Shown here in pieces: positions 38,295 through 63,648 of a stretch of 64,000 bases of DNA (the first letter of the stretch is position 1; the number at the start of each line of letters is the position of its first letter). Under the pieces are notes generated by a model, which was given only the letters and a program-made list of their open reading frames with translations, did not search any database and was not told the DNA's origin. The position numbers and the translations under genes are program-made. The stretch comes from Bauldia sp. (GTDB lineage Bacteria; Pseudomonadota; Alphaproteobacteria; Rhizobiales; Kaistiaceae). The stretch lies in the NCBI GenBank assembly GCA_037200845.1, contig JBBCGQ010000001.1, positions 2,554,237 through 2,618,236 on the forward strand, read 5' to 3'.

Positions 38295-38475
38295 TGCTGC
38301 TTCCGGCATGGCGCAGGCAGCGCACGAATGGGCCGCAATAGCGAGTCAATTCGACGTGGTTGCAGAGTGGGACACCGCCCGCGGCGTTCGCCGCCGTTCG
38401 AATAACCGGCAACGCTGGCGTGTTGACGGCGCGGCTAGGGGGCTCGAGCGCGTGCTCGCGCCAGGAGATATCGAC

Positions 38476-38934
38476 ATGTTGAAATCGTTCACCACCGCGG
38501 CCGCCATTCTTGCGGCCGTCACATTCATGACCGGAACGGCCGACGCCGCCGGCTACGGCACACCGCCCGCACCGATGCATTCGATCATGAAGCCGCCGGT
38601 GCACGTCAAGCCGGTCCTCGCGCTCGCGCCGGCGCATCTTGCCCGCACCGGCAAGGGTCTCGTCTGGGTCGATGCGCGCGGCTTCGCGCTCTACACCTTC
38701 GGCAAGGACCCGAAGGGCCAGTCGACCTGCTACGGCGCCTGCGCCGTCGCCTGGCCGCCGTTCCGCGCGGCGATGAACGCCAAGAGCTTCGGCAAGTGGA
38801 GCGTCGTCCACCGCATGGGCATGTTCGGCAACCAGTGGGCCTACAACGGCAAGCCGCTGTATTTCTGGTTCAAGGACACGCGCCCCGGCCAGGTGACCGG
38901 CGACGGCGTCAACGGCTTCCACGCCGCGCATTAG
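38476..38934 (+). CDS. Exported COG4315-type repeat protein (Lipoprotein_15)
   Basis: 152 residues with signal peptide MLKSFTTAAAILAAVTFM; AGGAGATATCGAC precedes ATG 38476. The mature part holds two copies of the short repeat: GFALYTFGKDPKGQSTCYGA with ACAVAWPP, and WAYNGKPLYFWFKDTRPGQV ending GVNGFHAAH. This is the secreted repeat family of unknown function, where the paired Cys and aromatic residues are typical. There is no lipobox cysteine after the signal peptide, so it is probably periplasmic rather than lipidated. Confidence 0.85.
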   Translation: MLKSFTTAAAILAAVTFMTGTADAAGYGTPPAPMHSIMKPPVHVKPVLALAPAHLARTGKGLVWVDARGFALYTFGKDPKGQSTCYGACAVAWPPFRAAMNAKSFGKWSVVHRMGMFGNQWAYNGKPLYFWFKDTRPGQVTGDGVNGFHAAH

Positions 38935-60143: not shown

Positions 60144-61100
60144 ATGCACGCCAAGGCCATCATCGTCGGCTCCGGACCCGCCGGGTATACGGCGGCGATC
60201 TATGCGGCCCGCGCAATGCTGGAGCCTATTCTGATCGCCGGCGTCACCGTCGGCGGGCAGCTTACGACCACCACCGACGTCGAGAATTATCCGGGCTTCG
60301 CCGACATCATCCAGGGCCCCTGGTTGGTCGAGCAGATGAAGGCCCAGGCCGAGCATGTCGGCACGCGCTTCGTCAACGACCACATCCTGTCGGTCGACCT
60401 GTCGCGCCGCCCGTTCGTGCTGAACGGCGACAGCGGCACCAAGTACACGGCCGACACCCTCATCATCGCGACCGGCGCCGAGGCCAAGTGGCTGAATCTG
60501 CCCTCGGAGCAGCAGTTCCGCGGCTACGGCGTTTCGGCCTGCGCCACCTGCGACGGCTTCTTCTATCGCAACCGCGAGGTCGTCGTGGTCGGCGGCGGCA
60601 ACACCGCCGTCGAGGAGGCGCTGTTCCTTACGAACTTCGCCTCGAAGGTGACGCTCGTGCATCGCCGCGATCACCTGCGCGCCGAGAAGATCCTGCAGCA
60701 CCGCCTGTTCGCCCACCCGAAGATCAGCGTCGTCTGGGACTCGGAGTTGCAGGATGTGCTGGGCAACGGCACCGTGCCGCCCGCCGTCACCGGCGCGCGC
60801 ATCCGCAACGTCCGCACCGGCGCGACCACCGACCTCAAGGTCGACGGCGTTTTCGTCGCCATCGGCCATGCGCCGGCGACCGCGTTCCTCGAAGGGCAAC
60901 TGAAGCTTCGCCCGTCCGGGTACCTGTGGACCGCGCCCGACTCGACCGCGACCTCGATCCCCGGCGTGTTTGCCGCGGGCGACGTGACCGACGAGACCTT
61001 CCGCCAGGCGGTCACCGCCGCCGGGCTCGGCTGCATGGCGGCGCTGGAGGCGGAGCGCTGGCTGGCCGAGCGCGAGATCACGGCGGAAGCAGCGGAATAG
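60144..61100 (+). CDS. trxB: Thioredoxin reductase
   Basis: 318 residues from ATG 60144. FAD site AIIVGSGPAGYTAAIYAARA, redox pair SACATCDGFFY (CATC), NADPH site VVVVGGGNTAVEEALFLTNF and the final FAD segment VFAAGDVTDETFRQAVTAA. Reduces thioredoxin with NADPH. Full length. The LysR-type regulator lies 79 bases downstream on the same strand, an arrangement known for trxB-lsrB. Confidence 0.97.
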   Translation: MHAKAIIVGSGPAGYTAAIYAARAMLEPILIAGVTVGGQLTTTTDVENYPGFADIIQGPWLVEQMKAQAEHVGTRFVNDHILSVDLSRRPFVLNGDSGTKYTADTLIIATGAEAKWLNLPSEQQFRGYGVSACATCDGFFYRNREVVVVGGGNTAVEEALFLTNFASKVTLVHRRDHLRAEKILQHRLFAHPKISVVWDSELQDVLGNGTVPPAVTGARIRNVRTGATTDLKVDGVFVAIGHAPATAFLEGQLKLRPSGYLWTAPDSTATSIPGVFAAGDVTDETFRQAVTAAGLGCMAALEAERWLAEREITAEAAE

Positions 61101-61179: not shown

Positions 61180-62070
61180 ATGGACTGGGACAAACTCCGC
61201 ATCTTTCAGGCGGCGGCGCAGGCGGGATCGTTCACCCACGCCGGCGAGGCGCTGAACATGAGCCAGTCGGCGGTGAGCCGGCAGGTGAGCGCGCTCGAGC
61301 AGGATCTCGGCGTCCCCCTCTTCCACCGCCACGCCCGCGGCCTCATCCTCACCGAGCAGGGCGAGGAACTTTTCCGCGCCGCAAGCGACGTCCTGGTCAA
61401 GCTGCAGTCGGTGCGTTCGCGCCTGACCGAGTCGGAGGAGAAGCCGAGCGGCACGCTGCGCATCACCACCACCGTCGGCCTCGGCTCGACGTGGCTGACG
61501 CAGCGCGTCCACGAATTCGTCGACCTCTATCCGACGATCAGCCTGCATCTCATCCTCGACGACGACGAGCTCGACCTGTCGATGCGCCAGGCCGACGTCG
61601 CCATACGCCTGCGCCAGCCGACACAGCCGGATCTCATCCAGCGCCGGCTGTTCACGGTGCACATGCATGTCTGGGCGGCGCCGTCGTACCTCAAGCGGTT
61701 CGGCCGGCCGGAGAAGGTCGCCGACCTCGACTCGCACCGCATCGTCACCTTCGGCGTGCCGGTGCCGGCGTACTTGCGCGATCTCAACTGGCTGGAGCTT
61801 GCCGGGCGCGGCTCCGACAACCCGCGCGACTCGGCGCTGAAGATCAACAACATCTTCGCCATCAAGAACGCGGTGATGAACGGCACCGGCCTCGCCGTGC
61901 TGCCGAGCTACATGGTCGAACCGGACTCCGGCCTGGTGAAGCTGTTGCCCGAGGAGCAGGTGCCGAGCTTCGCGACATACTTCGTCTACCCGGCCGAACT
62001 GAAGAACTCGGCGCGTGTGCATGTCTTCCGCGATTTTCTTCTGAGCAAGGCGCAGAACTGGTCGTATTGA
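61180..62070 (+). CDS. lsrB: LysR-family regulator, LsrB/VtlR type
   Basis: 296 residues from ATG 61180 with GAGGAGGCGGC upstream. HTH: MDWDKLRIFQAAAQAGSFTH, NMSQSAVSRQVSALEQDLGV, HRHARGLILTEQGEEL; then the effector domain (KPSGTLRITTTVGLGSTWLT, QADVAIRLRQPTQPDLIQRR). In S. meliloti lsrB and in Brucella vtlR occupy this place beside trxB. They control redox, LPS and, via AbcR sRNAs, nutrient uptake. An AbcR-like sRNA starts about 90 bases after its stop, as expected. Symbol given from context. Confidence 0.8.
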   Translation: MDWDKLRIFQAAAQAGSFTHAGEALNMSQSAVSRQVSALEQDLGVPLFHRHARGLILTEQGEELFRAASDVLVKLQSVRSRLTESEEKPSGTLRITTTVGLGSTWLTQRVHEFVDLYPTISLHLILDDDELDLSMRQADVAIRLRQPTQPDLIQRRLFTVHMHVWAAPSYLKRFGRPEKVADLDSHRIVTFGVPVPAYLRDLNWLELAGRGSDNPRDSALKINNIFAIKNAVMNGTGLAVLPSYMVEPDSGLVKLLPEEQVPSFATYFVYPAELKNSARVHVFRDFLLSKAQNWSY

Positions 62071-62164
62071 GGTTGTGGTTTGTTTGTCACAACCTGCAAC
62101 GATCTTTGGCAATTCATGCAGTGCCTATTTGCGCGGCAATGAACATTGCTCAAGATGATCGGGC

Positions 62165-62304
62165 TGATGCGGCGATTCGTTCGTTACTTCCTCCCTCCGA
62201 ACGAATGTCCCCATTGAGCTTGTTCCCCTCTGGAAGGCGTATGCCGCTGGCCATGCCGCGGCAAAACCTTGCCGGGTCTCCTAAGACGGGGCCCGGCTTT
62301 TTCT
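62165..62304 (+). ncRNA. AbcR (alpha-r15)-like small regulatory RNA, ends approximate
   Basis: Structure reads as an sRNA: a 5' hairpin ATTCGTTCG - TTACTTCCTCCCTC - CGAACGAAT (62175-62206) holds an unpaired CTTCCTCCC anti-Shine-Dalgarno loop; a second C-rich stretch, TTCCCCTC, follows; then GCCGGGTC-...-GGCCCGGC with CTTTTTCTT (62271-62304) is an intrinsic terminator. Loop wording, length of about 120-140 nt and place after an LsrB/VtlR gene match the AbcR family, which Hfq-dependently silences ABC-transporter mRNAs. The 5' end is estimated. Confidence 0.65.
62271..62304 (+). terminator. Intrinsic terminator of the AbcR-like RNA
   Basis: GCCGGGTC (62271-62278) pairs with GGCCCGGC (62290-62297), 8 bp with a T-G pair, loop TCCTAAGACGG, then TTTTTCTT. 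Confidence 0.8.
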
Positions 62305-62329: not shown

Positions 62330-62800
62330 CTACTTGTGAATCGGGTCGACCCAGCGGACGTCTTCCGGCTTCTCGACCGGCTCGATGTCGAGGTTGACGA
62401 CCACCGCCTCGTTGTCCGAGCGCACGACGACGCACTCCAGCGGCTCGTCGGTCGAGGCATTGATCTCCTGATGCGGGACGAACGGCGGAATGAAGATGAA
62501 GTCGCCCGGCCCGGCCTCGACGACATATTCGAGATGGTCGCCCCAGCGCATGCGCGCCCGGCCGCGCATGACGTAGATCACGCTCTCTAGCGCGCCATGA
62601 TGATGCGCGCCGGTCTTGGCGTTGGCCTCGATGCGCACCGTGCCCGCCCAGATCTTCTGCGCGCCGACGCGGGCGTAGTTGATCGCGACGGCGCGCTGCA
62701 TCCCGGGCGTCTGCGCCGTGTTCGGGTCAAGCCGGTCGCCGGGGATGACGCGGACGCCGTTGGTCTTCCAGTCGATTTCGTGCGGGTGGTGGTGCGACAT
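62330..62800 (-). CDS. Cupin-domain protein
   Basis: 156 residues from ATG 62800 (MSHHHPHEIDWKTNGVRVIP). The cupin metal motif is TGAHHHGALESVIYVMRGRA (HxH...E) and the second motif GDFIFIPPFVPHQEINAST (H). The N-terminal HHHPH run is native, not a tag, as the protein is otherwise conserved-looking. Small cupins may be dioxygenases or isomerases; this one could not be placed. Leftward, between the two copies of the sRNA sequence. Confidence 0.8.
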   Translation of the reverse strand: MSHHHPHEIDWKTNGVRVIPGDRLDPNTAQTPGMQRAVAINYARVGAQKIWAGTVRIEANAKTGAHHHGALESVIYVMRGRARMRWGDHLEYVVEAGPGDFIFIPPFVPHQEINASTDEPLECVVVRSDNEAVVVNLDIEPVEKPEDVRWVDPIHK

Positions 62801-62884
62801 CGGATGACCGCGGGGTTGGAAGGATCAGTTTCGCCCCGCGGCCGGGAATTGCAACACCGACCGCGGTCCGCGGCGCGGCTGGCG

Positions 62885-62934
62885 TCCGGAAGGACGTATG
62901 GCGCCGGCCGGATGCGACAAAACCTTGCCGGGTC
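62885..62934 (+). repeat. Degenerate second copy of part of the AbcR-like RNA
   Basis: TCCGGAAGGACGTATGGCGC ... CGACAAAACCTTGCCGGGTC (50 nt) matches 62229-62278, TCTGGAAGGCGTATGCCGCT ... GGCAAAACCTTGCCGGGTC (also 50 nt), at most positions. It is followed by a T-rich run (TTTGGTTTTTCTC) but the right arm of the terminator is not conserved. Located 70 bases before hicA. Confidence 0.7.
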
Positions 62935-63004
62935 CTTGCGACGGAGATTTGGTTTTTCTCGCCTCGACTTGAGTTTCGCACAAAAATGTGCGACACAGAA
63001 GGTC

Positions 63005-63211
63005 GTGAAGAGGGAACAGCTTTTCTCGGCATTGCGCCGCTGGTGCCGGAAGAATCACCGTTCGTTCTTGGTCGATACGGTCGCCGGCAAGGGTTCACAC
63101 GTGAAGGTCTACGTCGGCGACGCTTCGACGGTAGTCAAGTCGGGCGATCTGTCGCCAATCTACGTCGGCCTCATTCTCAAACAGCTCGGCCTTCCAAAGG
63201 ATGCCGTATAG
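63005..63211 (+). CDS. hicA: HicA-type toxin
   Basis: 68 residues from GTG 63005 (VKREQLFSALRRWCRKNHRS). The dsRNA-binding-like HicA fold is shown by FLVDTVAGKGSHVKVYVGD, with the catalytic histidine in GSHVKV, and PIYVGLILKQLGLPKDAV at the end. HicA is an mRNA interferase that halts translation until HicB blocks it. hicB starts three bases after its stop. The GTG is the only in-frame start near the family opening; the RBS (AGAAGG) is close to it. Confidence 0.75.
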   Translation: MKREQLFSALRRWCRKNHRSFLVDTVAGKGSHVKVYVGDASTVVKSGDLSPIYVGLILKQLGLPKDAV

Positions 63212-63213
63212 CC

Positions 63214-63648
63214 ATGCGCTACATTTTTCCTGCAAGGCTCGAGTCGCATCGCGGCACGGTGATCGTTTCCTTCCGCGACCTGCCAGAGGCCATCACCGAA
63301 GGACGTGACCGGACGGCCGCATTGCATGAGGCTATCGACTGTCTCGACACCGCGCTGCTTTTTCGCATCAAGGAGGGCGCACCCATGCCTTCGCCCTCGC
63401 GACTGCGCGCGGGAGAAGTCGCAGTGGCTGCCTCGCCAAGCATCGCCGCCAAGGCCGCGTTCGTGCGCGCCTTTGCCGAGTCAGGCTTAACTCGGGTTGC
63501 TTTGGCGGCCGCTCTAGGCGTACGCGAAACCGAGGTTCGGCGAATGCTCGATCCGGATCACGGGACCAAGCTCGATCGCTTGAACGAGGGCATGCGTGCC
63601 CTCGGCCGCCAGTTCGTCATCGTCGACCAACCCGCCGACGCGGCGTAG
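63214..63648 (+). CDS. hicB: HicB-type antitoxin
   Basis: 144 residues from ATG 63214 (MRYIFPARLESHRGTVIVSF). The N-terminal RNase-H-like HicB core contains SFRDLPEAITEGRDRTAALH and CLDTALLFRIKEGAPMPSPS; the C-terminus, GLTRVALAAALGVRETEVRR, is an HTH for autoregulation. Forms a pair with hicA and probably represses its own promoter. Toxin-first order is usual for hicAB. Confidence 0.85.
   Translation: MRYIFPARLESHRGTVIVSFRDLPEAITEGRDRTAALHEAIDCLDTALLFRIKEGAPMPSPSRLRAGEVAVAASPSIAAKAAFVRAFAESGLTRVALAAALGVRETEVRRMLDPDHGTKLDRLNEGMRALGRQFVIVDQPADAA

Follow-up and report, generated by a model that had tools for sequence, protein, structure and literature searches.

An AbcR-family small RNA behind lsrB/vtlR in Bauldia sp. 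and its relatives within the family and order

In the window (the whole stretch of 64,000 nucleotides of Bauldia sp. DNA that was analysed), the genes for thioredoxin-disulfide reductase (trxB) and a LysR-type regulator are followed on the same strand by a small RNA (sRNA) gene and then, in the opposite orientation, by a cupin gene (Table 1). The regulator is 73-77% identical to the orthologues encoded beside 20 homologous RNAs, and its designation as LsrB/VtlR rests on gene order and similarity; among the NCBIfam models, none exceeds its cut-off for this protein. The position of the sRNA behind trxB and lsrB/vtlR is that of the AbcR (alpha-r15) RNAs, and the sequence-only reading had correctly placed it downstream of an LsrB/VtlR-type regulator. 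Two further features of the neighbourhood were observed. At the lsrB stop codon, a perfect 8-bp inverted repeat, AGGTTGTG/CACAACCT (window positions 62070-62095), is followed by no T run and is a possible operator. Farther downstream (63005-63648), two small adjacent genes encode proteins of 68 aa and 144 aa, the former HicA-like by eye (no Pfam match at E 0.001) and the latter with a weak match to an Xre-like-HTH model (20.7 bits vs a cut-off of 25.8); they are possibly a toxin-antitoxin pair.

Table 1. Genes, RNA elements and related features of the trxB-lsrB-sRNA locus, in window coordinates
Feature	Coordinates	Strand	Basis and remarks
trxB, thioredoxin-disulfide reductase	60144..61100	+	TIGR01292, 397.9 bits (cut-off 343.45)
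LysR-type regulator, LsrB/VtlR orthologue, 311 aa	61135..62070	+	PF00126 (HTH_1) and PF03466 (LysR_substrate)
Promoter region behind the lsrB stop	62071..62163	+	no exact GCAT-N3-TG-N3-T box
AbcR-family small RNA gene	62164..62304	+	R1 and R2 matches, fold, same-family homologues; 5′ end inferred at ~62163-62165
SL1, 5′ hairpin with 14-nt apical loop	62175..62206	+	fold
Seed 1, aSD1 (M1), UCCUCCC, in the SL1 loop	62189..62195	+	sequence; same motif as S. meliloti aSD1
Seed 2, aSD2 (M2), GUUCCCCUCUGG, between the hairpins	62222..62233	+	sequence, invariant core, signature
SL2, second hairpin	62242..62263	+	fold
A-rich unpaired stretch 5′ of the terminator	62264..62270	+	fold of 62165-62304; possible Hfq site by analogy with PMC3712013
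Intrinsic terminator and U tail	62271..62304	+	terminator scan, fold
Cupin gene	62330-62800	opposite to sRNA	domain match, gene order
Decayed partial copy of the sRNA 3′ half	62836..62959	+	R1 18.8 bits; both seeds lost, terminator stem broken

The fold of the RNA bears out the architecture proposed from the letters, namely a 5′ hairpin exposing a motif in a 14-nt loop, a second C-rich stretch and an intrinsic terminator at the 3′ end. The stem of SL1 comprises 9 bp (62175-62183 / 62198-62206) and closes the 14-nt loop UUACUUCCUCCCUC, in which UCCUCCC is presented; the C-rich stretch is GUUCCCCUC at 62222-62230; and the terminator stem (62271-62297) consists of 10 pairs, 8 of them G-C, followed by TTTTTCT. 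The minimum free energy of positions 62165-62304 is -55.3 kcal/mol (z -3.17; 1 of 200 shuffles equally stable), and moving the 5′ end to 62163 yields z -3.43, with none of 200 shuffles as stable. A Rho-independent terminator preceded by an A/U-rich stretch is a property of AbcR (alpha-r15) RNAs; however, the terminator scan returned two terminator-like sites, against a mean of 2.1 in shuffles, so that the terminator by itself is not evidence, and it is the conservation that counts as such.

A DNA search of 61 genomes (this one and 60 relatives) gave matches in 23, comprising the genome itself, 21 members of the same family (Kaistiaceae) and one genome of another family, the match in the latter covering 22 nt and being taken for chance. 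All 21 same-family loci carry a clear homologue of the sRNA, and in 20 of these an LsrB orthologue lies upstream within the fetched locus. The homologues are 133-142 nt long and differ by amounts not divisible by three, for which reason a coding function was set aside. In one relative (G002, locus L013; C3:460039-475658), a distance of 14.6 kb separates lsrB from the sRNA, both lying on one contig and in the same orientation, and an exact LsrB box is kept at the sRNA, which suggests that the sRNA is a transcription unit of its own. A covariance model built from the 21 same-family relatives, with the window excluded (R1), matches 23 of 28 family genomes, the present one included. Four of the five genomes without a match (G006, G007, G010, G013) keep lsrB, behind which visual inspection suggests a diverged form of the RNA, with a terminator; in the fifth (G012), lsrB was not matched at E 1e-60. 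In relatives that carry lsrB and are not matched by R1 (L173-L176), inspection by eye showed two CCUCCC motifs in L176 and no aSD2 signature in L173-L175, and from these sequences the sRNA may be changing or decaying there.

Base pairing is maintained across the homologues. In 60 distinct rows, two-sided changes are found in 22 of 22 pairs, the SL1 stem covaries, and 94.5% of cells are paired, vs 26-40% in slid controls; these rows come from R1 matches in 62 sources, chosen mostly for having hits, and their alignment, being fitted to the model, leans towards it. A MAFFT alignment of the 21 family loci shows two-sided change in 5 of 22 pairs. The sRNA element is conserved, and very probably a real one.

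The relationship to known RNAs was addressed with the Rfam model RF02345 (ar15; gathering score 40 bits) and with purpose-built models. In the window, RF02345 stays below its cut-off and gives no match even at E up to 10, and in the genome as a whole there is none at E 0.001. When it was run on 11 relatives, two yielded scores at the right place and on the right strand (L021, 24.7 bits, E 0.4; L003, 24.1 bits, E 0.59), neither of them significant, and the other nine had no match at E 1; at the same place in L021, the anti-hemB model RF02837 scores 27.0 bits, above ar15 (23.9 in L013; cut-off 49.5). Across the order, 59 of 297 genomes have an RF02345 match with E of at most 0.01; the score exceeds the cut-off in 17 of these and falls short of it in 42. 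R1, by contrast, scores 86 bits on the window (E 4.6e-20, the E-values of both purpose-built models being rough). It also recovers, at the ar15 places, all 30 ar15 loci that were returned for 30 of the 59 RF02345-matched genomes, including both copies of four tandem pairs (216-223 nt apart); an LsrB homologue is present in 22 of these 30 loci. In the reverse direction, a model (R2) was built from 24 rows of 22 ar15 loci (8 being left out), none from the window's family. R2, whose rows were bounded by the ends of R1 matches and which has 7 base pairs and so is mainly a sequence model, gives its only match in the window at the sRNA (52.3 bits, roughly E 1.9e-11, over the full model) and matches 21 of 21 family relatives with at least 40 bits each. 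Homology to ar15/AbcR loci in sequence and structure is thus recovered both ways, and the covariance-model check proposed in the sequence-only reading divides accordingly: the Rfam model does not find the RNA, whereas R1 and R2 do, and RF02345 itself falls below its cut-off in most of the genomes that it matches.

Among 80 LsrB loci, 29 match R1 at E 0.001 or better, 27 of them downstream of lsrB on the same strand (four of the 27, L025-L028, are records of genomes in the R1 training set), and loci with LsrB below ~62% identity mostly have no R1 match. At the level of the order, R1 has matches at E 0.001 in 140 of 397 genomes, spread over 54 of 142 genera, in a survey that differs from that with RF02345 in genome draw and threshold. 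The genome itself has one R1 match at E 0.01, that is, a single copy. The second-best R1 match in the window (38463-38584, minus strand, 22.4 bits, E 0.00044) was rejected: it is antisense to the 5′ end of a long plus-strand open frame, and the terminator pairs are not formed. As a side observation, one genome with a tandem ar15 pair (L105, G049) carries a third ar15 copy on contig C1160 (112.2 bits).

The two seed motifs of AbcR that experiments have defined are both present. In S. meliloti AbcR1/2, aSD1 (CUCCUCCC) is described in the 5′ loop and aSD2 (UUCCCCUC), within an 'ultraconserved' stretch, between SL1 and SL2 (PMC8844928), and the corresponding seeds of B. abortus are given as M1 CUCCCA and M2 GUUCCC (PMC5461406). 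The apical loop of SL1 in the window carries UUCCUCCC, which departs from the 6-nt Brucella M1 in its final base (CUCCCU), and the place of aSD2/M2 between the first and second hairpins is taken by GUUCCCCUCUGG, which contains the M2 hexamer. Mean unpaired probability is 1.00 for aSD1 and 0.75 for the first nine bases of aSD2. In the folds of the window and its 21 relatives, aSD1 is apical in 20 of 22, and in most of them aSD2 pairs partly with the GGAA that follows (mean unpaired probability 0.36-0.75) and is therefore less exposed than aSD1. The aSD2 core is invariant across the 24 rows from other families; in the R1-match rows, the aSD2 signature occurs in 56 of 62 and an aSD1-like motif in 62 of 62, apical in 57.

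The closest parallels are the AbcR1/AbcR2 systems of S. meliloti and A. tumefaciens (alpha-r15, RF02345), in which lsrB/vtlR likewise adjoins abcR; in A. tumefaciens, trxB precedes vtlR as it does here (PMC7486931). The shared features reported for these RNAs extend to the hairpins, UCCUCCC in the 5′ loop, aSD2 between SL1 and SL2, the terminator and the A/U-rich stretch (PMC8844928, PMC3712013). The differences are that S. meliloti and A. tumefaciens have a tandem pair, whereas the window has one copy, which is below the Rfam cut-off and has no recognisable LsrB box. The AbcR1 and AbcR2 of B. abortus also hold M1 in the first hairpin and have an identical M2 (PMC5461406); there, abcR2 is described as being under VtlR, and the two copies reside on two chromosomes, compared to the single copy here (PMC7486931). 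The designation AbcR-like in the sequence-only reading was right and, if anything, too cautious, given the R1/R2 link, both seed motifs and the trxB-lsrB-sRNA order.

Whether LsrB governs this RNA has to be judged from its promoter and from its relatives. The reported binding site of LsrB/VtlR is GCAT-N3-TG-N3-T, which in the S. meliloti abcR1 promoter lies at -61 to -49 (PMC7486931, PMC8844928). Of 22 family promoters, 12 have an exact box at -63 to -65 relative to the inferred start, and 3 more have one at this place on the other strand; such a box arises in 0.6% of 2000 shuffles of the 110 nt upstream of the sRNA in the window. These 110 nt themselves contain no exact box, the best candidate having 2 mismatches, and the exact box is also absent from six relatives, which belong to three other genera (L002, L014, L015, L016, L021, L022). 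Over its full length the window has two copies of the pattern, both elsewhere, which is fewer than in shuffles (mean 5.4), and a consensus scan found no sigma-70-like promoter. The box is a mark of the AbcR1 branch and is not to be expected of every AbcR, since S. meliloti abcR2 is described as driven by RpoH1 independently of LsrB (PMC8844928). For Brucella, the sequence-only reading held that VtlR activates abcR2 from the neighbouring gene: activation of abcR2 by VtlR agrees with PMC7486931, where, however, abcR2 is called 'tandemly encoded' on chromosome I and the wording on adjacency is ambiguous, and action from the neighbouring gene is stated in PMC8844928 for AbcR1. Given that the box is present in 12 of 22 family promoters and missing from that of the window, activation by LsrB is inferred here, and judging from the place of the gene and from the relatives, control of the sRNA by LsrB in this lineage is likely.

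The absence of the exact box from the window and the six relatives could also mean that this AbcR homologue has been freed from LsrB, with the box lost and another factor driving transcription, as RpoH1 drives AbcR2 in S. meliloti (PMC8844928). Such rewiring would be compatible with AbcR identity but is rather unlikely, as LsrB is kept beside the RNA. Sites of LysR-type regulators are degenerate, and seven promoters are too few to define the LsrB site in these genomes. Much less probable is that the stretch, which comes immediately after lsrB in the same orientation and shows no consensus promoter in the window, is only the lsrB 3′ UTR with its terminator and no separate RNA: the conserved 5′ hairpin with its covarying stem, the box upstream in more than half of the family promoters and the distance of both RNA and box from lsrB in G002 argue against it, and S. 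meliloti AbcR1/2 are reported to be independent transcription units (PMC3712013). That an unrelated sRNA has arrived at anti-Shine-Dalgarno loops by convergence, like NfeR1 or other CUCC-loop RNAs, is hardly credible: these bacteria are indeed described as having further sRNAs with CCUCCC loops (PMC3927594), and the RNA is not called AbcR by Rfam, but the full-length covariance-model matches in both directions, the invariant aSD2 stretch and the shared gene order all speak for common descent.

The element, its conservation, its ar15/AbcR homology and its two anti-Shine-Dalgarno seeds are thus established by computation, and we put at about 0.93 the probability that the RNA is an AbcR with the general mode of action of the family, that is, an Hfq-dependent RNA blocking ribosome binding on ABC-transporter mRNAs. 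It would be a single-copy, trans-acting AbcR (alpha-r15) sRNA ~141 nt long that has a promoter of its own behind lsrB/vtlR and is activated by LsrB according to redox or nutrient state. Hfq, which is encoded in the same genome (110.1 bits), would bind the A-rich stretch and the U tail, and the UCCUCCC loop and the GUUCCCCUC linker would pair with mRNAs for ABC-transporter substrate-binding proteins at their ribosome-binding sites and would thereby block translation.

Of 28 loci in this genome that match substrate-binding proteins, 27 were used to evaluate predicted pairing with such mRNAs (L183, under the cut-off, was dropped); they correspond to 26 genes, or 25 after duplicate removal, and several of the called starts look wrong (L187, L189, L195). 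Compared to 92 other genes, the start regions of the 25 pair better with the seeds (p 0.0004 for aSD1 and 0.016 for aSD2). The same genes have stronger Shine-Dalgarno sequences (p 0.0002), which is mostly why they pair better, and once this is corrected for, p becomes 0.047 for aSD1 and 0.41 for aSD2. Shuffled seeds are equally good in 3/300 and 5/300 cases before the correction and in 13/300 and 13/300 after it. Full-length duplex energies are dominated by G+C-rich hairpins and were used only to read Shine-Dalgarno regions. Two genes stand out as predicted target leads. In L182 (Peripla_BP_4), GGGAGGAAGUAAC directly before the ATG is a 13-nt perfect complement to the loop; its 87% identical orthologue has kept only GGGAGGAA, with other flanks, and not the 13-nt pairing. 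The LivK-like gene L178 (385.8 bits, model cut-off 477) offers 8 nt for aSD2.

A DNA search of the genome also revealed a decayed partial second copy of the sRNA, which matches at 82% identity over 50 nt (E 1.4e-5). It lies between the cupin gene and the small two-gene unit, and a 21-nt direct repeat sets its distance from the first copy at 656 nt. With tblastn, the cupin gene and the small gene that follows were not found in the loci of other genomes, which reach only ~1.5 kb past the RNA. From its sequence, the decayed copy may be what is left of a tandem pair, or else the scar of an insertion. A more far-reaching and doubtful proposal would combine these observations: LsrB-AbcR would be an old module spread across the order Hyphomicrobiales, usually with one copy beside lsrB outside Rhizobiaceae, and here the known LsrB site would be gone and the 3′ half of the sRNA duplicated around the cupin gene, as if the 3′ end were an insertion site or the seedless copy an Hfq decoy.

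Both nutrient uptake and interaction with the host are reported to be under the control of AbcR RNAs in rhizobia, Agrobacterium and Brucella (PMC7486931, PMC5461406, PMC8844928). In the open-licence literature we found no description of AbcR in the window's family, and one may exist elsewhere. The sRNA described here is not of a new kind; it adds a member and a wider distribution to the known AbcR family. The survey suggests that the Rfam model misses many AbcR members, and annotation pipelines could name the RNA if the ar15 model were improved. With the box-less promoters comes the question of what LsrB reads there, and the finding puts this module, as a single copy, in the family of the window, which probably includes Kaistia genomes.
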